Positions 1 through 16,395 of a stretch of DNA of 30,138 nt are shown in pieces. The notes below the pieces were generated by a model. It was not told the DNA's origin, searched no databases, and saw only the letters and a program-made list of their open reading frames with translations. Within the stretch, counting starts at the first letter, position 1. The number at the start of each line of letters is the position of its first letter. Origin of the DNA: a virus; IMG/VR virus record IMGVR_UViG_3300025102_006570, positions 1 through 30,138 of that record. One strand, written 5' to 3'. The position numbers and the translations under genes are program-made.

Positions 1-1005
1 ATTAATAAATCTGTTCCATCTGCACTCAATTGTATTGATGTACCAAATTTTGTATTTGCTTGAGCGGTGTCTTGCCTTAAGTTTTCTACTTCAATATATG
101 TTGCCCCAGACTTTTTCCACACAAACACAATACCTTGATCTGCTAATGTGCTGTCGTCATATAGTTTTACTCCAACAGCAATTACAGAACCATCATTGGA
201 TATTTGTAATGTTTCACCAAATCTTGCTCCTACTTGCGATAGTGTGTTAGGTGTTAGAGTTTGCCAATGCTCGTATTGAGCCAATCCTGATGAATCCGAC
301 ACACCTCTTTTGAATACATAAACTTGTCCTTGATCAGCAAGTGTTGAGTCATTTGGACCTCCTGGTGCACCAACTACTATCCATTCTCCATCACCTGATA
401 TGCCAACTGTTTCTCCAAAACGTTCTCCTGATTTAATGTTAGGCGAAACAAGGTTAGCCGATATAGCAAACTGTTTATTAGTGTCTTGCGTAATCACATT
501 CACTGTGCCTTGTGCAGTTCTATTACCATCTGTAATTACTTTGTCAATAATTGATACTGATGATGAGTCATTAGCATTTAATGTGCTGTCATCAAAGTCA
601 GTGCCACTGGTTACTTTTACGTAGAATATGTCTTGCGTTGTGCCCTCTTCGTAACGCATCACTGTACCAGTTGCTCCAGTGTCGCCACCTATTACATTTT
701 GTCCCCTAGCAAATGATCTAGTGCTGTCTTGTGAAGGACCAGGTGCTGTCATTTTTACAATATCTTCAGTGTTTGGAGCACCTACTAAAACTATTCCACC
801 ATCATCGGAAATTGCCACTGATGTGCCAAATTCATCATCTCCAGCAGTATTTTTAATGCCAGGAACAATCTGTGTGTACATAGATATATCATCAGATGCT
901 TTTGGTCTATTGTATATCAATATTCTTTCTGCACCTTTTGCCGTCACTGCAAGAAATTTTGTGTCTGTTGATAGTGCCAAGTTTGCACCAAATTCTTCAT
1001 TATCA
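1..1005 (-). repeat. FG-GAP-like repeats (predicted beta-propeller) in the giant structural protein
   Basis: From about residue 2100 to the window edge the protein contains at least five units of the form F-G-x2-(L/V/I)-x-(I/L)-S-x-D-G-x(3-4)-(V/A)-V-G, for example 'FGTSVAISDDGGIVLVGAP' and 'FGETVGISGDGEWIVVGAP'. The units start near plus-strand 1005, 840, 425, 235 and 56, read leftwards. About 110 residues are inserted between the second and third units. This is the FG-GAP pattern known from integrin-alpha-type seven-bladed propellers and many secreted adhesins. More blades may lie beyond the window. A host-surface-binding head is inferred. Confidence 0.75.
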
Positions 1006-4000
1006 TTTTTCTTGTCAGCAAGATCAGTGTTGATTCCTAGTGCATCTTCAAAAGTAAACACTCCTAGTGAATCACGTTGCCACACTTTCCAACTGCCGCC
1101 ATTGGTTTCATATGCATTGTCCACATAAACATAATCCCCGGTTTGCCATCCTTTGATAGGTGTAATGTCCTGCAAATTATCAATGTCGGCAGTTCGAATA
1201 GTTTGAATTTTAGCAAGGTCTCCGTCCAGACTTGAACTATCTAGAGTACCTTCAAAAGTGATTGTAAATTTATATGCAGTGTCAGTAGAATCAAGAGGTA
1301 AAGATATTTCGTACACCCCGTCTGCTTGTGTTCCAAAGTTTAATATTGCAATAAAGTCACCGGCATTCAATCCATGTTGTTCAGTTGTAGTAAATTGCAC
1401 TTTATTGTCAAATTGGGTGTAAGACAAAATTGAATTGTTAGTTAAATTTACACGTCTAACATCCCAATCTCCTGTAGGTGTGTTTGCAATCCAAATTGTG
1501 GTTCCTTCTTTGAACGTTTCAACATCAAGTGTAGTCATGTCAGTGGTATTCCACACTGTGAAGTCTACTTGCTCAACTTGAGGGTATCCTGCTGTACCCA
1601 TTTTGAATATATTACTAGGATAATTTGAACTGTCATATGAGTAAGCAGTAAATTTTTCTGCTGGAATTTCATAAGGACGTTTATTGAATTCATTATTAGC
1701 AACATTCAACACCACACCAGTATCATCTTTACTTGCATCTGTGATCTGATATACATGCTGAAGCTCTGTGTGATTTTCACCGCTTACTGGCCATGCGTAT
1801 TGATTTTTTGTTCTGTGTCCACCATATTCTCCAATCCTTATCATCCAATCCTCAAACAGAGAGAATGTTGCGTTTTGACCAAATTGTGTAGGCAATGTAA
1901 TTTTATCTATAATTTGATTTGTGCCTTTGTCTCGAATAAATCCTTGATACAATTTATATTGTGTTGCTTCTTCAAACCCCAAATTTACTAGATAATCACG
2001 TTTTTGATATCCTATCAAGTGCTGTGCATATTTTTGTTGTTCAGCATCAAAATTTTCTGTATCCAAAGAATAAAAATCTCTAAACGATTCGGCCTTGTTA
2101 TCTAAGTTATTGATTATGTCAGGAACAGGAGTAGTCTTAATTGCAAATTGTAAAGCATCAAAATTATTTGTAGATGTATGACTATTTTTTGCAACATAAG
2201 TGTTTCCTTGATACGTTACTACGTCACCAATTTTATAATCTTTGTATTGTTCCCAATCCGATATTTGTGCTCTGTCAATAATAAAACCAGGTGAATATAA
2301 ATCTCCTTGCCAGTCTGCTGTTTTGAATCCTACTAATTTTAATCTTTCTTGTCTTGCACCTAGTTCAATATCATAAATGACATCTTTGAACGATGTCAAA
2401 TTATCAAGCACTAATAAATGTTCTTTTTGCACTGTACGGATATCAGCATTGTAGATTCCATCTTCGTTAGGATTAGTGCCAATTACTAATTGTCCATCTG
2501 CTCTGCTTACTCTTAAATTTTTAGGAATAATAGGCAATCCATCTTGTTGTAATACAGTGTAAAATCTATCACCTTGTACTAGATCGTCACCTATCGATGC
2601 AGGTCTTACATGTGTCAATTGTGAACTAGCAGGTGATACAGACAAGACCGAACCGTTTGACCAGTTCTGTGTAGTCCAAAATAAAATTTCTTTGACTGAC
2701 AAATCCCAATCCATTGTTAATTCTAAATCAGTTGAATATTCATCAAATACAAATCCTATACTTTGCAAATATTGATCGTATCCGTACACAAAATTTGCAA
2801 GATCTTGCACACTGGTGTATTCTGTACCATATGGCACTGTGGTAATGTTTGTGTGATAGTTAGAAAATTTCTTTACACTGACTCCGCCTTTGAGTGGTAG
2901 CACTGGTCCTATTTCTGACCAATTGCTTTCTTCGAAAGTATCTCCAGATGCTACGGCATTCAATGCTCTGTAAAATATTCCCGCATTTCTTACGATCCAT
3001 CCTTTTGCATAAGAACCTCCAGGTTGCCATTCTGAAAATGAGTCAGTGGTCTGTCCTACTGCAATAACACTGGCATCACGTGTGGTGATAGGAGCATTAA
3101 TTTTGAATGCACGATTAAAGTTTGAATATCCACTTACCTTGTATCCGTTTGTTGATTTTTCAACAATTACACCTGAATAGTTAGACACAGAAGTTGGAGC
3201 AGATTTATGTAATATCAAATTGTAGTTTTCTTTTGGAGTAAACACTGATTGGTTTGACGACAAAGGAGAAGATGAAGAAAGTTTAACTTCTAAATTTTGT
3301 TTGTTGGAATATCCTGCTAGTTTGTAAACCAACTGTACACTTAGATTTTGTAATCTTACTTCTAGTGCTGTGCTAGTTAACCCTTGTGATTTTACATAAT
3401 CGTAAATTACATTAATATAACCTGCAGTTTGGGCCGTTGATGGAAGCACATAATTTGATGGCGACTGTCTGTATTGATTGTTGTAAATGTTTTGTCCAAC
3501 TGCATTTGTAGTATTCCTTGATATGTCAAAAAATACTCCTGCATACTTTACAGGGTGTGCTAAAAATTTTGCTATTTGTTCAGCAAATCTCCATGATGAC
3601 GATGAACGCCATGCCCATTCAGCTGGTCCCATATCACCATATGACCATTTGCGTGATAGGTTGAGAGAGTTGATAGTATCGTCGGTCAACAATCCAGCAT
3701 TAGGTGGAGCAACTAAGTCTCCATTTTCGCTTACAGGGATTACAGAATACACATCGGAACGTTTGTATTTGTTATATGTACCTTTTCTGTCACCAAGTGC
3801 TATTGTGCCTCTTGCTACATCGTTCCATAAAACATTGTTGCCTCTTGTGTATGGTGCTGGTCCATATCTATCATCCCACCAACTAGGTTTTGCTCCAAAG
3901 CCAAACATTTCCCATGGAGTAGAGTGTGGAGAAACAGTATCAAAATATTCCAAATACACACCACGCCAATGTCCAGGTAATGGATCACTGTCTGTTGTTC

Positions 4001-7000
4001 TGTTGATTGTTTTTGAATAGTCTGAATAGTTCCATGTGAATGGTTCACCATTTTGGTAAACATCGTTGGACACATAGTCTATCCCGTTTGTACCAGTCCA
4101 ATAATAAAAATCACGTGCATATGCATTGATTACTTCTGTACGAGTGTAAGAATTAGTTTTGAATCTACCATAAGAAAATTCAATTGCTTCAGGATTATGA
4201 GTAATTTTTATATTGTTGTATATTCTTTTTTCAAACTCTAATAAGATATCATCTCTAAAGTCACCAAATCCAATAGTTCTGCTTCCATCATGTCCTTTGA
4301 TAGTTAATAATCCACCTGTTGACGAATCTTCATTAAGATAGATATCATCATGTTCTAGAGTTGGTTCGTATGCTGGAGCTAGTCCTAGTTTACTAGGTGT
4401 CGCAGGTACAAAAGATCCATTTGTTGTGTCATGCTCATCTACAGTGATTTTATCATCAGTTGCTAGAGCAGATTTAATTTCAAAACCTATAAAGTTTGCA
4501 GAATCGTCAAGGCCAATAAATTCATAATCACGCCCATGTACCAATTGTGTGCCATTGACATATATGTAAAGTGCTTTTTGAGATAATGCAGTAAGATCAA
4601 ATGCAGATGTAATAGGATATAAAGTGACTGCAGGATCAACCACTGTGTATGACAATATTGTCTTGTCGCCACCATATGCAATCATGTCTGAATCATAATA
4701 AGCAAAACTAGAATTTTTGTTTGCATTAATTTCATCTAAAATAATATCAAGATTTTTTGATGCAGATTCTGTCATTACAAGTGTTTCTGCTTTTCTCAAA
4801 ATGTTAGCTTTGAATTGTTCGTAATCTACACCTGTCTTTCTCCAGGATTCTACAATATTGACTGTGTCATCACGTAAGAATAAAGAAGCCAAAGGCATAC
4901 TGCCTTCATGTTGTACAATTTTCGTTCCACGTTGAATTATTTCTTTTATGTCACGTGAATTATTTGCTCCGACTATGGTTCCTGTTAATGCATCTACTTC
5001 TTCTAAAGCAGAATACCAATGTTTTGCATAATCGCCTATTGTTAATGTGCCAACACTTTCATTCAATGGATTATTTTGTGCCGCAGGTGCAACTTCATAA
5101 TATCCATTCAAAGTTCTGATACCAACTGTCGAATGTGATTTGATTGTTACTATGTCATCTTGTGTAGATACTGTATCTAATTTTACAAACAATTTGTCTT
5201 GCACACCTGCCACTGTGGTATATGCTGTTGTTTTTATTCCATTTACAAACACTAATAATGTTAGATCAGTAAGCGAGTTTGGATTCTGATAAGATTCTAC
5301 TTCAAATTGATTTTGATCCGCAGTAGCAACATATTGTTCTACCACTCGTTGTTTGCCGTCTGCTTTGGTAATTCTGTAATTTGTAACTAATTCTTGTTCC
5401 CCAAATTGATTTGTTTTCCTTAGATAATATGATTTTATGTTTTCAGATACTGGAGCTGTACCTTGCACATAAGTGATAGTGTCTGTGTTGAAAGTGTCAT
5501 TCACTTGCATGTCACTCAACAATCCTAATCGTGAATATATCACATTTGTACCATACACAGTGTCAGGTGTACCTTGCGAATCATCAGTGTTGATTTCAAA
5601 CACAGTGGATCCTACAAAGTCTGTAGAAATAAATGTATCTAAATTAGATAATGATATTTGTGCATCTGTAAACACATCAAATAAAGGTTTTTGTTGCACA
5701 CTTGTCTTTTGTTGTGATTTGGTCCATTTGTAATCAGCTGATGAATAATGATAAGATATTCCTTGATTATTACCACGTGTGCCTACGACAGAGGTTCCAT
5801 CTGCTATCGCTGTAGAATCATCTACAATTTGTAAATGTAGTCTACTAGGATTGCCTGCAGTGGAATCTCCTAATTCATAAAATTTAACCTGGAAAATTTT
5901 ATTTTTCTGCTGTTCATCTTGTGTAAACACAACTAGATCATTCTCACGCAACACAGTGCCATCTGAAATAAATCCTAAAGTTCCACTTACAAGTGACAGA
6001 GCATCAGTGACCTGCGTGTCAACAACATCAACTAGTCTATGAGTATATCCATGATTGTATAAATTCAAGCCTGCTTCAAATTCTATGATAGGTCTCTTTG
6101 CTCTTTGATTTTCTGAAATTGGAATAGCATAGTTATTTTTTGAGTTGCAAAGTGCGATTACATCTTTGTGGAACCATCTGTTTGATCTTGACCAAGCATT
6201 TCTGTCACGTGCTGATCTGTTTATGGTCCAATAATCAACAGCAACCAATTGACCGGTTGAATTATCCCAGCCTCCTGTATCAAATCCTTCAGTGCCAGCT
6301 GCATCGAAAATTGCACCTATTTCTTCTGCCCATGTGCCATATGTTCTAATTTCACTTTCCAGTGTCAGTGTAGTTGATGTGCCTACACCTTCTACATAAT
6401 AAGTTTTGTTTTTATATGTTTCTGTTACGTCATTACCTATTCTGATAGGCAATCCGTTTGTCAACTTCAACCCAGTGTAATCCGTAAATGATGTTGTACC
6501 TATTAAATTTTCTTCAGGATCAAAATCTTCATCATCAAGATCTCTAATAATAATTCTACCTTTCATTCCGGTATGATTCTGACAATGATAAAAAATTATT
6601 GTAGGATATTGTGTGCTTGAATCACTTGCTGGAACATTCAATGTGACTGTACCATTGTCTGCCCCATTGTTTTCAACCATAGGTTCTTCCAACTTGTCTT
6701 GAGTACCAGTACCGTACTGTGACTTAATTAAAAATGGATGTCCTGATGCAGCTACATTAAATTTGTATGTGTTGCCTTTGTACACAATAATATCAGGGTT
6801 GTTTGCAGTCTTGTGACTGAACACATATGCACCACTGTAATTATTTTTTACATCAAATTCAATAGTTGCCCCAGGTGTGCCTGGTTGCAATACAATTGGT
6901 GACAATCCTTGTGCTATCCAAAAGTATTCTCTATAGTTTACAAATTTGTCATGGTCAATAGGTGGAGCATAAGAGTATGTTTGATTTGATAACAATCTGT

Positions 7001-7325
7001 CGTGTTTAATTTTTGAACCACCTTGTGCTTCAATATCGTTGATTACATCAATGTAAGGAGCCGCAAAATCAACATCTATTCCATTAGATTTGTAAAGTGT
7101 TGCTGGCTCTAACTGATAATTGGTTCTGTCATCAGTAAGTTCTGGCACATACCCATCCGTTGCCTTGTAGGAAGGAATTGTTGTATGACCTATGTAAGAT
7201 GATAACTTCTGTGTTTTGGTAGGCTCAATTAACTGATCCAAAGTGGCTGTTAAAAAGTCTTTGTTTTTATTGGTTTGGAAGACTTCAGGTAACAGAGTTT
7301 GCGATTTGCGTGTGCTCTTACCCAT
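1..7325 (-). CDS. Giant tail/baseplate-associated structural protein, partial (C terminus outside window)
   Basis: One uninterrupted minus-strand frame runs from an ATG at 7325 to the window edge, giving at least 2441 residues. The ATG follows the gp6 stop by one base (TAA-G-ATG), so it is the downstream partner of gp6, where marine T4-like phages often carry very long virion proteins. What can be seen, in order: an N-terminal region starting MGKSTRKSQ; a cupredoxin-like domain at about residues 150-260 with a complete His/Cys/His/Met ligand set; a long middle region rich in aromatic, Asn and Thr residues with no family I recognise; two W...Y-x-x-G-x-V...Y segments (about 1430-1470 and 1690-1725) resembling CBM5/12-type carbohydrate-binding modules; and FG-GAP-like repeats from about residue 2100 on. 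I infer a virion protein at the baseplate periphery that contacts the host surface, possibly a fibre or fibre-attachment protein. The structural role is likely; the precise role is unknown. Confidence 0.85.
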   Translation of the reverse strand, partial: MGKSTRKSQTLLPEVFQTNKNKDFLTATLDQLIEPTKTQKLSSYIGHTTIPSYKATDGYVPELTDDRTNYQLEPATLYKSNGIDVDFAAPYIDVINDIEAQGGSKIKHDRLLSNQTYSYAPPIDHDKFVNYREYFWIAQGLSPIVLQPGTPGATIEFDVKNNYSGAYVFSHKTANNPDIIVYKGNTYKFNVAASGHPFLIKSQYGTGTQDKLEEPMVENNGADNGTVTLNVPASDSSTQYPTIIFYHCQNHTGMKGRIIIRDLDDEDFDPEENLIGTTSFTDYTGLKLTNGLPIRIGNDVTETYKNKTYYVEGVGTSTTLTLESEIRTYGTWAEEIGAIFDAAGTEGFDTGGWDNSTGQLVAVDYWTINRSARDRNAWSRSNRWFHKDVIALCNSKNNYAIPISENQRAKRPIIEFEAGLNLYNHGYTHRLVDVVDTQVTDALSLVSGTLGFISDGTVLRENDLVVFTQDEQQKNKIFQVKFYELGDSTAGNPSRLHLQIVDDSTAIADGTSVVGTRGNNQGISYHYSSADYKWTKSQQKTSVQQKPLFDVFTDAQISLSNLDTFISTDFVGSTVFEINTDDSQGTPDTVYGTNVIYSRLGLLSDMQVNDTFNTDTITYVQGTAPVSENIKSYYLRKTNQFGEQELVTNYRITKADGKQRVVEQYVATADQNQFEVESYQNPNSLTDLTLLVFVNGIKTTAYTTVAGVQDKLFVKLDTVSTQDDIVTIKSHSTVGIRTLNGYYEVAPAAQNNPLNESVGTLTIGDYAKHWYSALEEVDALTGTIVGANNSRDIKEIIQRGTKIVQHEGSMPLASLFLRDDTVNIVESWRKTGVDYEQFKANILRKAETLVMTESASKNLDIILDEINANKNSSFAYYDSDMIAYGGDKTILSYTVVDPAVTLYPITSAFDLTALSQKALYIYVNGTQLVHGRDYEFIGLDDSANFIGFEIKSALATDDKITVDEHDTTNGSFVPATPSKLGLAPAYEPTLEHDDIYLNEDSSTGGLLTIKGHDGSRTIGFGDFRDDILLEFEKRIYNNIKITHNPEAIEFSYGRFKTNSYTRTEVINAYARDFYYWTGTNGIDYVSNDVYQNGEPFTWNYSDYSKTINRTTDSDPLPGHWRGVYLEYFDTVSPHSTPWEMFGFGAKPSWWDDRYGPAPYTRGNNVLWNDVARGTIALGDRKGTYNKYKRSDVYSVIPVSENGDLVAPPNAGLLTDDTINSLNLSRKWSYGDMGPAEWAWRSSSSWRFAEQIAKFLAHPVKYAGVFFDISRNTTNAVGQNIYNNQYRQSPSNYVLPSTAQTAGYINVIYDYVKSQGLTSTALEVRLQNLSVQLVYKLAGYSNKQNLEVKLSSSSPLSSNQSVFTPKENYNLILHKSAPTSVSNYSGVIVEKSTNGYKVSGYSNFNRAFKINAPITTRDASVIAVGQTTDSFSEWQPGGSYAKGWIVRNAGIFYRALNAVASGDTFEESNWSEIGPVLPLKGGVSVKKFSNYHTNITTVPYGTEYTSVQDLANFVYGYDQYLQSIGFVFDEYSTDLELTMDWDLSVKEILFWTTQNWSNGSVLSVSPASSQLTHVRPASIGDDLVQGDRFYTVLQQDGLPIIPKNLRVSRADGQLVIGTNPNEDGIYNADIRTVQKEHLLVLDNLTSFKDVIYDIELGARQERLKLVGFKTADWQGDLYSPGFIIDRAQISDWEQYKDYKIGDVVTYQGNTYVAKNSHTSTNNFDALQFAIKTTPVPDIINNLDNKAESFRDFYSLDTENFDAEQQKYAQHLIGYQKRDYLVNLGFEEATQYKLYQGFIRDKGTNQIIDKITLPTQFGQNATFSLFEDWMIRIGEYGGHRTKNQYAWPVSGENHTELQHVYQITDASKDDTGVVLNVANNEFNKRPYEIPAEKFTAYSYDSSNYPSNIFKMGTAGYPQVEQVDFTVWNTTDMTTLDVETFKEGTTIWIANTPTGDWDVRRVNLTNNSILSYTQFDNKVQFTTTEQHGLNAGDFIAILNFGTQADGVYEISLPLDSTDTAYKFTITFEGTLDSSSLDGDLAKIQTIRTADIDNLQDITPIKGWQTGDYVYVDNAYETNGGSWKVWQRDSLGVFTFEDALGINTDLADKKNDNEEFGANLALSTDTKFLAVTAKGAERILIYNRPKASDDISMYTQIVPGIKNTAGDDEFGTSVAISDDGGIVLVGAPNTEDIVKMTAPGPSQDSTRSFARGQNVIGGDTGATGTVMRYEEGTTQDIFYVKVTSGTDFDDSTLNANDSSSVSIIDKVITDGNRTAQGTVNVITQDTNKQFAISANLVSPNIKSGERFGETVGISGDGEWIVVGAPGGPNDSTLADQGQVYVFKRGVSDSSGLAQYEHWQTLTPNTLSQVGARFGETLQISNDGSVIAVGVKLYDDSTLADQGIVFVWKKSGATYIEVENLRQDTAQANTKFGTSIQLSADGTDLL
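2150..3040 (-). other. Two CBM5/12-like segments in the giant structural protein
   Basis: Two stretches of the giant protein share the pattern W-x(4-6)-Y-x2-G-x-(V/I)-V-x(3-5)-G-x-(F/T)-Y-x-A. One begins 'WQPGGSYAKGWIV' (about residues 1430-1470, plus-strand 2915-3040). The other begins 'WEQYKDYKIGDVVTYQG' (about residues 1690-1725, plus-strand 2150-2262). This resembles the short chitin/cellulose-binding modules of the CBM5/12 type, which recur in phage tail proteins. The pattern is visible; glycan binding is inference and the match is to a short, weakly constrained motif. Confidence 0.5.
6540..6875 (-). other. Cupredoxin-like (type 1 copper) domain inside the giant structural protein
   Basis: Residues about 150-260 of the protein starting at 7325 read like a small blue-copper fold. 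A strand-forming segment with 'VYKGNTYKF' precedes 'GHPFLI' (His196), and a later segment reads 'FYHCQNHTGMKG', with Cys248, His251 and Met254. The Cys-x2-His-x2-Met spacing is that of amicyanin; plastocyanin has Cys-x2-His-x4-Met. All four classical ligands are present in the usual order (His, then Cys-His-Met on one loop). The motif is seen directly; copper binding and any redox role are inference. A structural, metal-stabilised domain is an alternative. Confidence 0.75.
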
Positions 7326-7326
7326 C

Positions 7327-10300
7327 TTAATAATATCCTGAGCCTGATGATCCTGATGTGATGGTTGAATTCACCGATGTAGTAGCAGTTGCACTTGCAC
7401 CTGTGACAGCCGCTCCGGTAGTTGATGATACCACAGTGCCTGTTGATTTAAGTTGTTCTGCTGTGTTAGATGATATTATCTGAACATTATCAACTGTGGC
7501 AGATGAAATAGGCAATTGATGGCCATCCACAGTAATTTCAAACAATGATCCAAATGAAGTTGTTGCACTTGCTGGTACAATCACAATACTCAACACATCT
7601 GGTGCCAATACATTGTGCAAGTATGCCGCTAATTCTGTAAAGTAAAATGTGTCGCCGAAATCCCATAAAGCCAAAGTGAAATAATCATTGATTGCTTCGA
7701 TCAAATTAGACTTGATTTGATTATCTGACACTGCTGTTGCTTTATTTTTTACAACTTTAAATGTTGCCTGCAGAGATGTTTCAGCTCCTTTACCAAACAA
7801 CAGCACATACTCTCCTGGATTAAAAACTATTGTGTCACTTACACTTTTTAATTGATTCAGCGTTGGCAAATATGTGTCATTTAATTCTGCCACAGTTGGT
7901 GGTTGAGGCTCGGCTGTCAATTGATTTGCATTTAACCAAGCACGGAAATCTATATCATATGATTTTGTCATCACATAACAGTCTATAATGTTACTCACTG
8001 ATGGATCTAATCGTCTGTCTCTAGGAGCACCATGATTGTATCTGTAAATCAAACTTTGTCTGCCCAGTTTAGCAGTGTATCCTGTCAGTTCCTCTAACAG
8101 TTTTGTAGTTGAATTGTATGTCTTGAATTCGTCGTCTTGATAAAAATAAAATTTTTGTCCATCTGCATAAATGGCAGGATTAGTGATATCAGTTTCTTTT
8201 GGCACTGTGACAAACTCTGTATTGTTAATTGGATTCAATTGCTCAAATCCGTTTACTGTCACAGTTTGAAAGAATACGTATTTTTCATTAATGTCTGTTG
8301 TGGGCGAAACAATAAGAGCAAATAAATCAGGATTGTCTACCACTCCATCATCATCACCGTCAAATAATCCTATTTGTATTTTGCGTGTATCGGAATATCC
8401 ATCTGCACCAACAATATTTTTTACAATCTGCCATTTATAATCAAATGTCAAATTTGATACAAAATCAGGTTTTGTGTTGGATTTTAAAATGGTGACTGAA
8501 TCTTTTACAACCAAGCCTGTTTCAGGATCAATTGCTTTTACTGACTCATCGAAATAAAATTTATTTCTTGAAAAACTTTGGAATATGTATTGTGTTGCTC
8601 TGTTGAATACTGTGTACGTCAATCCATTGGTAGAAAATCTTATCAACCAAGATGCATCTAAACTTGCACTTGTTTTGTTTTCCGCAAAGGATAAATCAAA
8701 ATCTCCAGTGTTCAAGTTGTCATCATCAATTACATACCATGCTCTGGTTGTGTTGTTGTATCCTAGTCCAAAGTTTTTGAATGCAACTACTTTGTCTATG
8801 ATAGCAGTTTCTAATGTTGTAGAGATACTGTCTACATACTTAGGAATAATTTCTTTAAGTTCTGCATTAGTAGGAATAAGATCCGATAACACAATAGGCC
8901 CAGTACCATCAGCTAGTTCTCCTTGTCCGCCATTGGACCCATCACCCTCAACACTGATAGTTTTTGTCCACATTATTTCAGCACTGCCAGGATGGCCAGG
9001 CGCACCAGACATCTGTGTGCCTAGTTCAGTCATAAAGTGACTGCCAGATGTTGGCTCAAACTTTAACAATGCACCTTCTGTCACATATTGCAGATTAGAC
9101 ACACTAGATGTGCCAACTGCTAATACACTCGAATCTGCCCCTTCTGCAAGGAAGTAACCTGTGACTTGATTCCCAGTCTGTGTCGATTTTTTCCAAGTTT
9201 TAAGTCCAGAAATTTGTGGTCTCGGAAAATTATCATAATAAAATTGTTTGAGTGAACTGGATTCAAATATGTTTGCAACAGAACTAGTAATAACTTTTCT
9301 TGCATCATCCCTTGTTGTGAATGAAAAATCAAATGATTCAGTAACAATGTCTCTGTACACCATTCCATCATCAGCCACTATATCAGTTTCTGAGTAAACT
9401 CCTGTTGGATCTGTAACATCTAAAAATCTTGAAGTACCACTTATAGCTCTCACTTGTGATCTTGCTTTTGCCAATGAAGGATTTTGTGTCAAAGGAATAA
9501 TTTGATAATCTTCTGGAGTAATCATCCTGTTGTTGGCATAATACACTTGAGGAGCTTGTGTTTTGATGTCCACTATGCTTTGAGACTGAGCCGCATTAGT
9601 CACTGTGCTTGTGAGTGATGCTGTCACGGTTAATGTGTTGATTTGATTATTGCGTGACACATACTCGACATCAAATGAAATATTTTGCATGTCTCCTGTT
9701 TGAATTCTATATGTCAGTCCGTTACTTTGTCTGTAAAACACACGGAAGTTTCCTACAGGCATTGTTCCATATGTGCCATCTGAAAATACAAGATCAATTT
9801 GATCATTTGTTTTTGTAACCACAGCATACTGGTTAGTAATATTGTTGGCCAATGTGTTGTATATCACATTGTTGCCTGTGATAGCAGGCACTTTGGTCCA
9901 TGCTTGTTCTAACAATCCGTTTTGGTCTAGTTTGAACAAGAATACATCATCGTTATTGATTCCGTTTTCTTCAACAGTCACAATAGTGTTTGGAAGTTGT
10001 GAATCGATAGTAAAGTCTGTGCTGTTCATTTCTCCTTGTTTGAATGTGAAGAAATAACCAGTTGAATTAGAACTAAATCCTCTTCCATCATTTTTGTACA
10101 AGAAAGAAAGTGAATTGCCTGGCACTGGATTTTCTTCTATAACAAATCCATCGTCTAATGCAACAGGCACAATTTCAAAATCCATTGCTATTCCGTTGAT
10201 GTTGCGAGAAAATGATTGTGTTGGCAATCCAATATTACTAGAGTTTAATCTGTATTGATCTGTTGTTATTCCACCAACAGTTCCTGTTGATTGTGGTTTT

Positions 10301-10812
10301 CCAACTGTTTGTGCTCTTGGAAGAGCAGAGTTAAGCACAGCATTAAATTGTTCCTGCCAATTTGTGTTTGTAACATCATTCCAAAGTATCGGAGTGTTTG
10401 CTAAATCGTTTCCATTTGCATCTAACACAGTCTCAGTGGTTGTGATCGAGGTAACTTTTAGTTGTCCTGATCCAGAAATATTTCTTTTGGGTTGAAATGA
10501 TATGAGTCTTGCTAATCTTAACACTGACTCTTTACGTTCAGCAAGATCAATAAAGTTTTCTCTAGCATTTAGATCAACTCTGTATGAAATAGATTGTGCC
10601 ACATAAGAAATCAAATCAATCAGTGCAAGATATTCTGATGATTCGATGTAGTCATTGAACGACTCTGAATAGTTTAATCTAAGGTAATCAATCAGTGTTC
10701 GTCTTATGGTATCAAAATCATAAGATTTAAAGTCCGCTTGTGAAAACGTTCTGTATATTCTCTGCCAAGTGTCATTTACAAGTAGAGAGTTCTGTCTATC
10801 ATTAGATGGCAT
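7327..10812 (-). CDS. 6: Baseplate wedge protein gp6
   Basis: The 1161-residue protein opens with the characteristic gp6/gpJ-family N terminus. 'LRLNYSESFNDYIESSEYLALIDL' occupies roughly residues 44-70, followed by 'YRVDLNARENF' and 'SVLRLARLISF'. In T4, gp6 forms the inner ring of the baseplate wedge with gp7, gp53 and gp25 and links the hub to the outer wedge. T4 gp6 is about 660 residues, so this version is far longer. The excess lies in a long middle part and a C-terminal Ser/Thr/Gly-rich tail ending 'SSGSGYY', which may be flexible. It lies between gp25 and the giant structural protein. A TATAAATA late element directly precedes the ATG and no Shine-Dalgarno is visible. Family assignment is strong for the N-terminal region. 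Confidence 0.9.
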   Translation of the reverse strand: MPSNDRQNSLLVNDTWQRIYRTFSQADFKSYDFDTIRRTLIDYLRLNYSESFNDYIESSEYLALIDLISYVAQSISYRVDLNARENFIDLAERKESVLRLARLISFQPKRNISGSGQLKVTSITTTETVLDANGNDLANTPILWNDVTNTNWQEQFNAVLNSALPRAQTVGKPQSTGTVGGITTDQYRLNSSNIGLPTQSFSRNINGIAMDFEIVPVALDDGFVIEENPVPGNSLSFLYKNDGRGFSSNSTGYFFTFKQGEMNSTDFTIDSQLPNTIVTVEENGINNDDVFLFKLDQNGLLEQAWTKVPAITGNNVIYNTLANNITNQYAVVTKTNDQIDLVFSDGTYGTMPVGNFRVFYRQSNGLTYRIQTGDMQNISFDVEYVSRNNQINTLTVTASLTSTVTNAAQSQSIVDIKTQAPQVYYANNRMITPEDYQIIPLTQNPSLAKARSQVRAISGTSRFLDVTDPTGVYSETDIVADDGMVYRDIVTESFDFSFTTRDDARKVITSSVANIFESSSLKQFYYDNFPRPQISGLKTWKKSTQTGNQVTGYFLAEGADSSVLAVGTSSVSNLQYVTEGALLKFEPTSGSHFMTELGTQMSGAPGHPGSAEIMWTKTISVEGDGSNGGQGELADGTGPIVLSDLIPTNAELKEIIPKYVDSISTTLETAIIDKVVAFKNFGLGYNNTTRAWYVIDDDNLNTGDFDLSFAENKTSASLDASWLIRFSTNGLTYTVFNRATQYIFQSFSRNKFYFDESVKAIDPETGLVVKDSVTILKSNTKPDFVSNLTFDYKWQIVKNIVGADGYSDTRKIQIGLFDGDDDGVVDNPDLFALIVSPTTDINEKYVFFQTVTVNGFEQLNPINNTEFVTVPKETDITNPAIYADGQKFYFYQDDEFKTYNSTTKLLEELTGYTAKLGRQSLIYRYNHGAPRDRRLDPSVSNIIDCYVMTKSYDIDFRAWLNANQLTAEPQPPTVAELNDTYLPTLNQLKSVSDTIVFNPGEYVLLFGKGAETSLQATFKVVKNKATAVSDNQIKSNLIEAINDYFTLALWDFGDTFYFTELAAYLHNVLAPDVLSIVIVPASATTSFGSLFEITVDGHQLPISSATVDNVQIISSNTAEQLKSTGTVVSSTTGAAVTGASATATTSVNSTITSGSSGSGYY

Positions 10813-10851: not shown

Positions 10852-11304
10852 TTAGGCCGCAGTGTAAACTTCTGAAGGACCAGCCAATAATCCTTGCTGT
10901 GAGTCGAATAACAAGTCCATAGATTCACCTAATCCGTATCCAGTGTACACAACTGACACTTTTACTTGTAGTCCTTGTTCGTAATCGTTAACTTCTATGC
11001 TGTCCATTTCAACACGTGGATCATAGTTTACAATCGCTTCAACTTCCTCAATCACAGCGTTTCTGGTTTCATCATCCAACGGATCCATCAAATATAACCA
11101 AATATTTGTACCAAAGTCTGGATTTTCCAGTTTTTCGCCCTTTAATATATTGAAATGATTGAGTAAATCTTGTTTGACTAATTCTATATCATATAGTTTA
11201 GTGTCAGCAAAGTCTCTGCCAACAGAACTGTGTCCTCGAAATATTCTTGTGTTAGACACACCTTGTGTGGTTGAATTTACTTCATTGAAGTTTTTTACTG
11301 CCAT
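10852..11304 (-). CDS. 25: Baseplate wedge protein gp25
   Basis: This 150-residue protein belongs to the gp25/GpW-type wedge family. Its core reads 'LLNHFNILKGEKLENPDFG', then 'NIWLYLMDPLDDETRNAV', 'YDPRVEMDSIEV' and a closing beta segment. In contractile tails gp25 sits at the junction of the first sheath ring and the wedge and helps start sheath polymerisation; the family was once thought to be lysozyme-like. T4 gp25 is about 130 residues, so the length is normal. The 39-bp gap to gp6 holds the late promoter element. The upstream neighbour is a 53-residue Cys-rich protein, and the position within PAAR-gp25-gp6 fits contractile injection machines generally. Confidence 0.93.
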   Translation of the reverse strand: MAVKNFNEVNSTTQGVSNTRIFRGHSSVGRDFADTKLYDIELVKQDLLNHFNILKGEKLENPDFGTNIWLYLMDPLDDETRNAVIEEVEAIVNYDPRVEMDSIEVNDYEQGLQVKVSVVYTGYGLGESMDLLFDSQQGLLAGPSEVYTAA

Positions 11305-11478: not shown

Positions 11479-11739
11479 TTATCCTACAAACACATCACTG
11501 GAACCTGTGGCAGCCTCGCCACACACTGACGCAACATCGCCAGCATTACACACTGCTTTGCCGCCAACAAATACTGCATTGGACCCGGCCACTATGGTCT
11601 GTTCTAAGTGTGGAGCAAGTCCATGTGCGGCCACTGTATCACCATTCACAATTATTTCTTCGCCATTAGCTATTACTGTGGTCTGTGATGGAACTAAATC
11701 ACCACCTGCCGCATCGTTGTCTCTGCATACTCCCGGCAT
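11479..11739 (-). CDS. PAAR-motif spike tip protein
   Basis: The 86-residue protein has the Gly/Val/Ala-rich pattern of PAAR proteins: an N-terminal 'VCRDNDAAGGD', a 'VIANGEEIIVNGDTVAAHG' repeat, and Cys/His residues (Cys5, His39, His44, Cys64, Cys73) of the kind that hold the metal at the cone apex. PAAR proteins cap and sharpen the gp5/VgrG spike; the T4 counterpart is gp5.4. The start codon overlaps the gp5 stop by one base (TAATG), and a strong Shine-Dalgarno lies 6 nt upstream, so translation is coupled to gp5. Confidence 0.85.
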   Translation of the reverse strand: MPGVCRDNDAAGGDLVPSQTTVIANGEEIIVNGDTVAAHGLAPHLEQTIVAGSNAVFVGGKAVCNAGDVASVCGEAATGSSDVFVG

Positions 11740-13589
11740 TACACACCTCTCCTTGCTTGAGCATCTTCATTGTCAGGTGTTTCTGTAAATCTTTCGTCTG
11801 TAAGTTCTCTGTCTGTGAACAATATTCCCGACTTGTCTACTGACACAATATTATTGAATACAACTTTTCTTTTGTTTTCATGTTCAGCATAAGGTTCTGC
11901 TGTTGGCACACGTTTCATAATAGATTGTCTTTTAATTTCTTTTACTGTTTTGTCTATACTTTCTGGCACAATTACATTTTCAAATGTGCTTAATTGTTGA
12001 ACACGTTCTCCTTCATCACCAACAACATTTTCTACCACAATGTTTGCTCCAACCACACCAGATACAACTTTGCCTGAAGTGTTAAAATGTATTTCACTTG
12101 CTGTGTTTACCAAATGATCATTGGCGGCAAAAATTTTGTTGTCATTTGCAACCTCTAGTACATTATCATTACCAACATAACTTTTACTGTCATTTCCTAT
12201 GAAAGTGTTGAAATTATTTTTTACTCTCAGCTGTAGTGTACCAGTGCCGGAACTATCACTGGCTGAAGCACTGCCTACTTCAATTTCTGCAAAATTTTGT
12301 GCATACAAAGAAAAATCATCTCTAGTTTGCAATCGCATGTTTTTTTGTGCTTCAAATATCATTTGTTCTTCTGATTTAACAGCAACATCTTTTTGTGCCA
12401 GCATCTCAATATCTTCGTTGGCATCAATGTGTATTCTACCTGTCACAATGTCTTCATTTGAATTTATAAATTGATCTGTTTTGTTTTGCCCTGTGGCTTT
12501 CATGTTGATGTTTCTGGCCGCTTCTATATTAATATCACGTTCTGCTCTAAGATTGAAATCACCAATGGTATGCACACTGAAAGACTCATCTGCATACATG
12601 TCTATTTTGCCATCTTCTGACAGTTCTACCCATGCTGTGCCTGTGCTGTTTATGATGTACACAGTGTTTTCTGAATCATGCAACAATACTTGAGCACCTT
12701 TGCGTGTTCTAAATCTTATCAATTCATTTTCGATAGGTGTTTTTCCTTGTACACTAGGAGTACCATCATCCATTACAAACGAATGTCCACCCAATCTTGA
12801 GTGTGCAAATTTTTCTCCTATTTTTCCATGTCTGTTTACAGAGTCTGTGTTAGGAGCCGCAAACTGCCCTTCGAAGTCTATAGGACCCGGTGTGCTGATG
12901 CCAAACACTTGTGAAGGTGTTTCACGTCTCGCTGACGAACTGGTGATGCCTCTTATTTTGTCTTTGATCAATCCTTGTGCCAACAATGACTCTGCCAAGG
13001 GTGTGTGCACCGGTCTATATTTTGCACTGTTATCGGTAGCATAATCTGTGTTGATGCCTACAGCATCGTCTGTAATTTTTCTGTTTGGTTCTGCCACAGG
13101 TAAATCTTCAATGCCTAATCCACCAAATCGTTTTTGTGCATCGCCTCCTCCAGGACCGCCTCCACCTTCTTCAATACTGCGTGGCGATGATGCTAATCCT
13201 GGCACCATGTGGTTGATCTGCATGTCTGGCACACAACCTATCCAAAACCCTTCATTGACATTTCCATTGGCAAACATCACAAGCACCTGTGTACCTATAT
13301 CTGGCGGCACTGCCCAAAAACCATATGACTTTTGTGTAGCATGAAAGTCTCCACTGTTGGTACCTCTTGCATCACGCACAGGAGTTTGGCCAGCAAAGGG
13401 TGAACAGTATCTCACTGTGTATGTGACGTCAGCTACAGCTCTATCAGGAACGTCTTTGTGTGTTTGTAAGGCAGGGATAGAAACTTCCAATCGGCCGGAT
13501 CTGTTTACATCAGCAGAGTTCATTACTGTGCCTATGTATACACCCATTGAAGGTGACATTGGATTGAACTCTCTTTTATGCTGTGGCAT
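11739..13589 (-). CDS. 5: Baseplate spike protein gp5 (VgrG-like, without a visible lysozyme domain)
   Basis: The 616-residue protein has an N-terminal OB-fold region (about residues 14-130: 'MGVYIGTVMNSADVNRSGRLEV', then 'PPDIGTQVLVMFANG' and 'EGFWIGCV') typical of gp5/VgrG. A Gly-rich linker follows near residue 148. The C-terminal half has short repeated beta-strand units ('IDMYADESFSVHTIGDFNL', 'DINIEAARNINMKA') that predict the trimeric beta-helix needle. T4 gp5 carries a lysozyme domain between OB-fold and needle; I see no such domain here, so cell-wall digestion would have to come from another protein. It sits directly between the hub gene and PAAR. The ATG abuts the upstream stop and has an AGGA Shine-Dalgarno at 13596-13599 with 6-nt spacing. 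Confidence 0.88.
   Translation of the reverse strand: MPQHKREFNPMSPSMGVYIGTVMNSADVNRSGRLEVSIPALQTHKDVPDRAVADVTYTVRYCSPFAGQTPVRDARGTNSGDFHATQKSYGFWAVPPDIGTQVLVMFANGNVNEGFWIGCVPDMQINHMVPGLASSPRSIEEGGGGPGGGDAQKRFGGLGIEDLPVAEPNRKITDDAVGINTDYATDNSAKYRPVHTPLAESLLAQGLIKDKIRGITSSSARRETPSQVFGISTPGPIDFEGQFAAPNTDSVNRHGKIGEKFAHSRLGGHSFVMDDGTPSVQGKTPIENELIRFRTRKGAQVLLHDSENTVYIINSTGTAWVELSEDGKIDMYADESFSVHTIGDFNLRAERDINIEAARNINMKATGQNKTDQFINSNEDIVTGRIHIDANEDIEMLAQKDVAVKSEEQMIFEAQKNMRLQTRDDFSLYAQNFAEIEVGSASASDSSGTGTLQLRVKNNFNTFIGNDSKSYVGNDNVLEVANDNKIFAANDHLVNTASEIHFNTSGKVVSGVVGANIVVENVVGDEGERVQQLSTFENVIVPESIDKTVKEIKRQSIMKRVPTAEPYAEHENKRKVVFNNIVSVDKSGILFTDRELTDERFTETPDNEDAQARRGV
11746..11753 (-). promoter_or_regulatory. 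Strong Shine-Dalgarno for the PAAR gene (AGGAGAGG)
   Basis: The minus strand has AGGAGAGG ending 6 nt before the PAAR ATG, inside the 3' end of gp5. It fixes the start and contrasts with the missing Shine-Dalgarno at transcription-unit starts in this window. Confidence 0.8.
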
Positions 13590-16095: not shown

Positions 16096-16395
16096 TTAAA
16101 TTTCCAAGTATTCTTCTAATGTAGACTTCTTAGGAATACGAATTAAGGTTCCTGCTGTGAATGACCATATTGGATCTGTTATTGTGTCCATGTTGCGGTG
16201 CTGAAAACACCACCATAACTTAGGCGTTCCATACAAGTCATAACTTAACAGGTCTGGTCTGTGTTCGTAGAAGGAATCAATCTCGTACAATACATCATCC
16301 TGCATGAACTCAAATAATCTTTTGTTCAATAAACCTAATGTTTCTCTTCCTTGCGGAGTATCAAAATAGGGCGATGAATTTTCATAATTTGCCAT
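16096..16395 (-). CDS. 53: Baseplate wedge protein gp53
   Basis: The 99-residue protein matches the core of gp53: 'YEIDSFYEHRPDLLSYDLYG', then 'KLWWCFQHRNMDTITDPIW' and 'AGTLIRIPKKSTLEEYL'. That Trp-rich block and the closing 'IRIP' segment resemble LysM-like wedge proteins. T4 gp53 is about 196 residues, so this is a compact version. Its ATG overlaps the gp48 stop by one base (TAATG) and has an AAAGGA Shine-Dalgarno at 16404-16409, 8 nt upstream. In T4 it clamps neighbouring wedges around the hub. Confidence 0.88.
   Translation of the reverse strand: MANYENSSPYFDTPQGRETLGLLNKRLFEFMQDDVLYEIDSFYEHRPDLLSYDLYGTPKLWWCFQHRNMDTITDPIWSFTAGTLIRIPKKSTLEEYLEI

Follow-up and report, generated by a model that had tools for sequence, protein, structure and literature searches.

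Metal sites in phage tail proteins have a published precedent in the HxH tail fibres, whose sites hold iron with a proposed role in receptor engagement (PMC11705849). The blue-copper proteins closest to the domain described here are, unlike it, a soluble periplasmic electron carrier in the case of rusticyanin and a free-standing protein in the case of amicyanin. In the literature we found no virion protein of a phage described as carrying a cupredoxin domain, and since that coverage was open-access only, this absence is weak evidence of novelty. Here we analysed a 30,138-base virus record (IMGVR_UViG_3300025102_006570), referred to in its entirety as the window, in which an earlier note had pointed to a complete blue-copper ligand set inside a giant phage tail protein. 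Sequence comparison and structure modelling support a predicted cupredoxin fold with a complete type-1 ligand set within a giant virion tail/baseplate protein.

By the open reading frame listing, the minus-strand frame at 3-7325 is open for 2441 residues and continues past the window end. Contig G001 and the window agree at 100% identity across the 8.4 kb that were compared, and there the protein is complete at 4306 aa. The gene, two of its recognisable modules and the neighbouring baseplate genes are as follows:

3 to 7325, minus strand: giant virion protein occupying the place of gp7 in a T4-like baseplate cluster (phrog_10938 virion structural protein, E 2.4e-229)
312 to 458, minus strand: FG-GAP_2 repeat, residues 2290-2338 (PF14312, E 8.6e-14)
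2166 to 2255, minus strand: CBM_5_12 carbohydrate-binding module, residues 1691-1720 (PF02839, E 1.8e-6, 28.3 bits against a cut-off of 26.2)
7327 to 10812, minus strand: gp6-like baseplate wedge protein (phrog_10646, E 7.5e-284)
10852 to 11304, minus strand: gp25-like baseplate wedge protein (PF04965, E 1.2e-9)
11739 to 13589, minus strand: gp5-like baseplate hub / tail lysozyme (phrog_13211, E 2.2e-53)
16096 to 16395, minus strand: gp53-like baseplate wedge protein (phrog_7145, E 2e-24)

Read along the minus strand, the order is gp53-like, virion structural protein, gp5-like hub, gp25-like, gp6-like and giant protein, and Pseudomonas phage PA5oct has a matching gene order in which sigma factor and SbcCD genes adjoin, as in the window. 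The PA5oct homologue of the giant protein is gp355, and its record notes detection by ESI-MS/MS. Together, the match to a virion structural phrog, the gp25-gp6-giant order and this mass-spectrometric detection of a homologue bear out the placement of the ligand set in a giant phage tail protein. The giant gene directly follows gp6 in the baseplate cluster, which is the position of gp7, and gp7 is also the name given in the P-SSM2 record to the giant protein that comes after gp6. A phmmer search of residues 1-1242 against the PDB matched no baseplate protein, and because no sequence similarity to T4 gp7 was found, gp7 is used here as a positional name only. FG-GAP repeats and the CBM_5_12 module are present in the full-length protein on G001, and the two kinds of module in the window protein hint at contact with the host surface or with polysaccharide.

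The putative copper domain lies near the N-terminus of this protein, and its predicted ligands are encoded at the following positions:

6546 to 6866, minus strand: cupredoxin domain, residues 154-260 (AlphaFold2 and Foldseek, profile against the PDB, HMM envelope)
6738 to 6740, minus strand: His196, predicted N-terminal copper ligand in G-H-P-F (invariant over 17 domains; aligns with the GHSF His of rusticyanin)
6582 to 6584, minus strand: Cys248, predicted copper ligand (one of only 2 Cys in 2441 residues)
6573 to 6575, minus strand: His251, predicted copper ligand (invariant over 17 domains)
6564 to 6566, minus strand: Met254, predicted axial copper ligand (invariant over 17 domains)

The residues named in the earlier note, His196 and Cys248-x2-His251-x2-Met254 in a protein of at least 2441 residues, are present at coordinates that fit, and they follow the conserved His, Cys, His, Met order of type-1 blue-copper sites. 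C-x2-H-x2-M occurs once in the 2441 residues and in 0 of 2000 composition shuffles. The earlier description of the spacing as that of amicyanin holds for the Cys-His-Met loop; it does not hold for the His-Cys spacing of 52 or for the G-H-x-F context, both of which are closer to rusticyanin. For the known blue-copper proteins, this comparison uses a ligand numbering that we presume to be correct.

We next consider whether these residues sit in a cupredoxin fold. AlphaFold2, run without templates on a 37-sequence alignment, modelled the domain as an eight-stranded beta-sandwich (pLDDT 78.9, pTM 0.78), and the Greek-key topology of the cupredoxin superfamily is assigned to it from the strand count and the Foldseek matches. 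In Foldseek, all 50 PDB matches listed for this model were cupredoxin-fold copper proteins, with E values down to 3e-6; the top matches were rusticyanin (E 3e-6, probability 1.00, TMq 0.50) and small laccases, and similarity to the solved cupredoxins was moderate (TMq about 0.5, rmsd 5-7 A). Folding residues 1-443 (443 residues) gave the same cupredoxin result with probability 1.00, residues 140-320 being the best modelled. Structure prediction and comparison with known cupredoxins, which had been proposed as a check, thus favour a cupredoxin at the level of a model. The proposed profile search pointed the same way: a profile built from 17 related domains matched only blue-copper proteins in the PDB, with 42/42 matches at E<0.1. 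Its best match was amicyanin (E 2e-4), and the profile alignment places the four ligands of rusticyanin in register with His196, Cys248, His251 and Met254.

Searches with the window protein sequence alone against Pfam, NCBIfam and the PDB gave no match above cut-off (amicyanin, E 0.03), and the aligned profile was needed because these single-sequence matches are weak. PF00127 (Copper-bind) had no match in the window protein at its gathering cut-off and matched 9 of the 17 relatives (best E 1.5e-4). Whole-record searches with PF00127 and PF25489 gave no match; PF25489 was also silent in every control genome, so its blank result carries no information. Against the amicyanin equivalog TIGR02657, the window domain scored 14.5-14.8 bits, below the curated cut-off of 110.2.

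The 17-domain alignment draws on unlike marine-phage proteins (from P-SSM2, Bellamy, S-RIM8, P-GSP1, P-TIM68, S-H9-1, S-BM3 and others) at 34-51% identity to the window and spans 107 columns. Only 7 of these columns are invariant (His, Pro, Tyr, Cys, His, Met and Gly), and the ligands account for four of them, an outcome with a chance of about 7e-6 if columns are prespecified and exchangeable and relatedness is ignored. Among homologues on viral contigs, the complete set is present in 78/80, a collection gathered mostly by patterns outside the Cys-His-Met loop. Across the family, 130 distinct sequences include two that are incomplete, and 121 of the 128 complete distinct domains carry the full type-1 ligand set, all 25 complete domains from other phage proteins (25/25) among them. 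Alignment of marine phage homologues, which the earlier note had named as a check, therefore shows the set to be retained, and it is this conservation, beyond the motif itself, that raises the ligand set above chance.

The earlier note had also held that homologues keeping the fold while losing the ligands would count against its claim. Such domains exist (7/128) and come mostly from one sister clade (L306, L307, L309, L310 and L311), in which Phe or Tyr stands at the first His and Cys-His-Met is kept; L314, near this clade, has lost three ligands and kept the domain, and in L079 Asn replaces the first His. Ligand loss in 7/128 indicates that some lineages can dispense with the copper site, and does not make the set a mere coincidence; one lineage retains the domain without a copper site, which is evidence that the fold has a second use independent of copper. 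L306-L311 and L314 constitute natural ligand-less controls. A second, more diverged cyanophage subfamily (L206, L207 and L209; SNSGHPxRF ... HYQCSxHGxM) keeps the motif.

We rejected the possibility that the ligands are an artefact of the search patterns. Most of the 80 homologues differ from HCQNHTGM, the sole ligand-bearing pattern, and could be matched only by other patterns such as GNTYKFNV. One later homologue set was found partly via FNVxAxGHP, which includes the first His and might mask His losses; the ligand-less clade was recovered in a separate scan and not via this pattern.

Comparison with jumbo phages indicates how the domain is placed within the giant protein. Two conserved blocks flank it:

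6903 to 7325, minus strand: conserved N-terminal block, residues 1-141, ending in NYREYFW (common to jumbo-phage homologues; tblastn, 58 phage records)
5001 to 6482, minus strand: conserved block after the insert, residues 282-775 (common to jumbo phages without the domain)

The flanks match jumbo phages of Agrobacterium, Pseudomonas, Sinorhizobium, Salicola, Salmonella and Cronobacter, and in the homologues of PA5oct, SCTP-2, Munch and GAP32 the flanks are conserved and the domain is absent. In Atu_ph07 (Agrobacterium) and Phosso (Sinorhizobium), an unrelated V-G-D-G domain of ~80 residues occupies a matching insertion point, at residues about 165-250 of the giant protein (L167, L169). Whole-record searches found 1-4 cupredoxin domains in 22/22 marine phage records, which had been chosen for carrying one, and none in six jumbo phages from other sources. 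Judged from these alignments, the predicted domain is an optional accessory insert near the N-terminus of the giant protein. Since it is absent or replaced elsewhere, the site can be viewed as a loading dock for accessory modules, occupied by a cupredoxin in marine phages.

A separate blue-copper gene was observed in relatives of the window. Contig G004 matches the window at 91.7% identity across 8.4 kb. Flanked by a phage DNA polymerase on one side and a ferredoxin-family gene on the other, it has a gene for a pseudoazurin-like protein of 139 aa that carries an apparent signal peptide:

L224:12707-13126 (contig G004), minus strand: pseudoazurin-like gene (PF00127 E 2.3e-15; TIGR02375 E 2.5e-27, under cut-off)

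At least 279 viral stretches encode pseudoazurin relatives, L226-L305 among them. In two metagenomes with near-identical copies of the window, contigs L230 and L231 carry the pseudoazurin region at 91-96% identity to G004, so the population of the window probably has pseudoazurin too. By sequence, the pseudoazurin relatives give a weak hint of an alphaproteobacterial host.

How the domain is used can be read in several ways. That the motif is fortuitous, or the resemblance an alignment artefact hiding a different fold, is extremely improbable: the single sequence falls under the Pfam gathering thresholds, but every independent test led to cupredoxins, and the exact set is retained by homologues of about 35% identity. 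A chance motif was thus rejected on conservation. Contamination by a host gene was likewise rejected, as the open reading frame runs without a break into that of a baseplate protein and dozens of viral contigs carry it too. We regard as unlikely a purely structural or adhesive beta-sandwich whose ligands are kept for folding, or bind zinc or nothing, leaving virions without copper. Such a role would suit the L306-L311 clade and L314, which keep the domain and lose ligands, as well as the cytoplasm's small supply of free copper during virion assembly; however, the ligands outlast nearly all core residues over the 25 domains from other proteins, and cupredoxin-like folds that do not bind copper usually lose their ligands, as in ephrins.

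The conservation of all four ligands of an electron-transfer site, far above the rest of the domain, would also be expected of a redox-active copper centre. When the tail meets the host envelope, such a centre would pass electrons to or from periplasmic or surface carriers, or read their redox state, and would thereby help to trigger or commit the baseplate. Close relatives have a gene for a secreted pseudoazurin next to one of the ferredoxin family, and plastocyanin is encoded by some cyanophages, from which it follows that these phages do handle electron carriers. We nonetheless hold this explanation to be unlikely as well, because a second redox centre was not recognised in the scanned virion proteins, homologues work without the domain, and the sister clade lacks His196. 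The iron in HxH tail fibres (PMC11705849) offers a precedent for a Trojan-horse metal display, in which bound copper lets the tail engage a metal-uptake or metal-binding protein on the host surface, and the six jumbo phages tested yielded no such domain, in contrast to the marine phages. This appears improbable, given that copper in a type-1 site is largely buried, unlike HxH iron, and that homologous domains occur in varied proteins, including S8-peptidase-like ones, beyond receptor-binding tips.

The reading that we consider reasonably probable is that this is a genuine type-1 blue-copper cupredoxin domain, carried as an optional module close to the start of the giant protein that occupies the gp7 position in marine T4-like phages, and serving a metal-stabilised role in host contact. 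Related domains sit in other tail, connector and fibre proteins of marine phages, and the near-universal retention of four ligands in many such proteins suggests that the particles probably carry copper. The metal that the domain would bind within the particle is copper or some other soft metal. Virions are assembled in the cytoplasm, which offers little free copper, and our guess is that loading takes place after lysis or at the cell surface. The most economical role, and the likeliest, would be that of a beta-sandwich stabilised by metal and exposed at the baseplate periphery, together with the carbohydrate-binding and FG-GAP modules, where it may add to contact with the host envelope; copper-specific chemistry is possible and not required. 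We infer surface exposure and host contact solely from where the domain sits and what lies beside it. That the metal matters is argued chiefly by how much more strongly the ligands are conserved than the remainder of the domain, which also leaves room for the redox and Trojan-horse readings. Against the metal-stabilised host-contact reading stand the sister clade without His196 and L314 without three ligands: the domain can serve without a copper site.

A bolder and more doubtful picture is one in which the baseplate and fibre proteins of marine virions bear arrays of loaded type-1 copper centres that do work depending on copper where they meet the cell, either redox triggering or copper-dependent recognition of the host, and couple infection to the host's copper and electron carriers, some phages also expressing a secreted pseudoazurin. 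Should copper indeed be bound, blue-copper particles would number among the sea's most abundant viruses, representing a new virion metal chemistry and possibly a new sink and carrier for ocean copper, and would allow a direct test of whether phage-tail metal sites serve host contact. The proposal is testable now, since the domain is recognisable by its motif, cyanophages carrying it are in culture (P-SSM2, S-RIM8 and Bellamy) and natural ligand-less controls exist.

Among known systems, rusticyanin (PDB 1a8z, 1gy2, 1rcy) shares with the phage domain its four aligned ligands and the G-H-x-F context of the first His, where its G-H-S-F resembles the phage G-H-P-F, and it provides the top Foldseek matches; it differs in a longer Cys-His-Met loop and in an identity of only ~17%. 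Amicyanin (TIGR02657; PDB 1aac), the best PDB profile match, has the same C-x2-H-x2-M loop spacing and, in contrast to the phage domain, a shorter His-Cys spacing. The At5g54830-like domain PF25489, for which we found no documentation of function in the literature, matches 32/37 marine homologues (best E 3.4e-8) and leaves the window sequence itself unmatched. Short proteins from Verrucomicrobia and Deltaproteobacteria MAGs (L187-L190) have HPF-x-I ... Y-Q-C-G-N-H-x-x-M and 37-40% identity to the window domain; unlike the giant protein they are short, some with an apparent signal peptide, and are not virion components. They are a possible cellular source of the phage module. Four other matches, in MAGs labelled Pelagibacter, Rickettsiales and Betaproteobacteria (L183-L186), are the same giant phage protein, and these contigs are most likely binned phage DNA. 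Cyanophage proteins (P-SSM2 tail fibre-like, Bellamy, S-RIM8 gp9/connector and S8 peptidases) have the domain family and ligands in common with the window, but carry them in other proteins whose records have no copper annotation. Lastly, the HxH tail fibres of T4 (gp37) and Alteromonas phage R22Y (PMC11705849) are alike in placing a metal site with a proposed host-contact role in a tail protein; there the site is an octahedral surface iron within a fibre trimer, whereas the phage domain described here has a predicted cupredoxin-type site instead.
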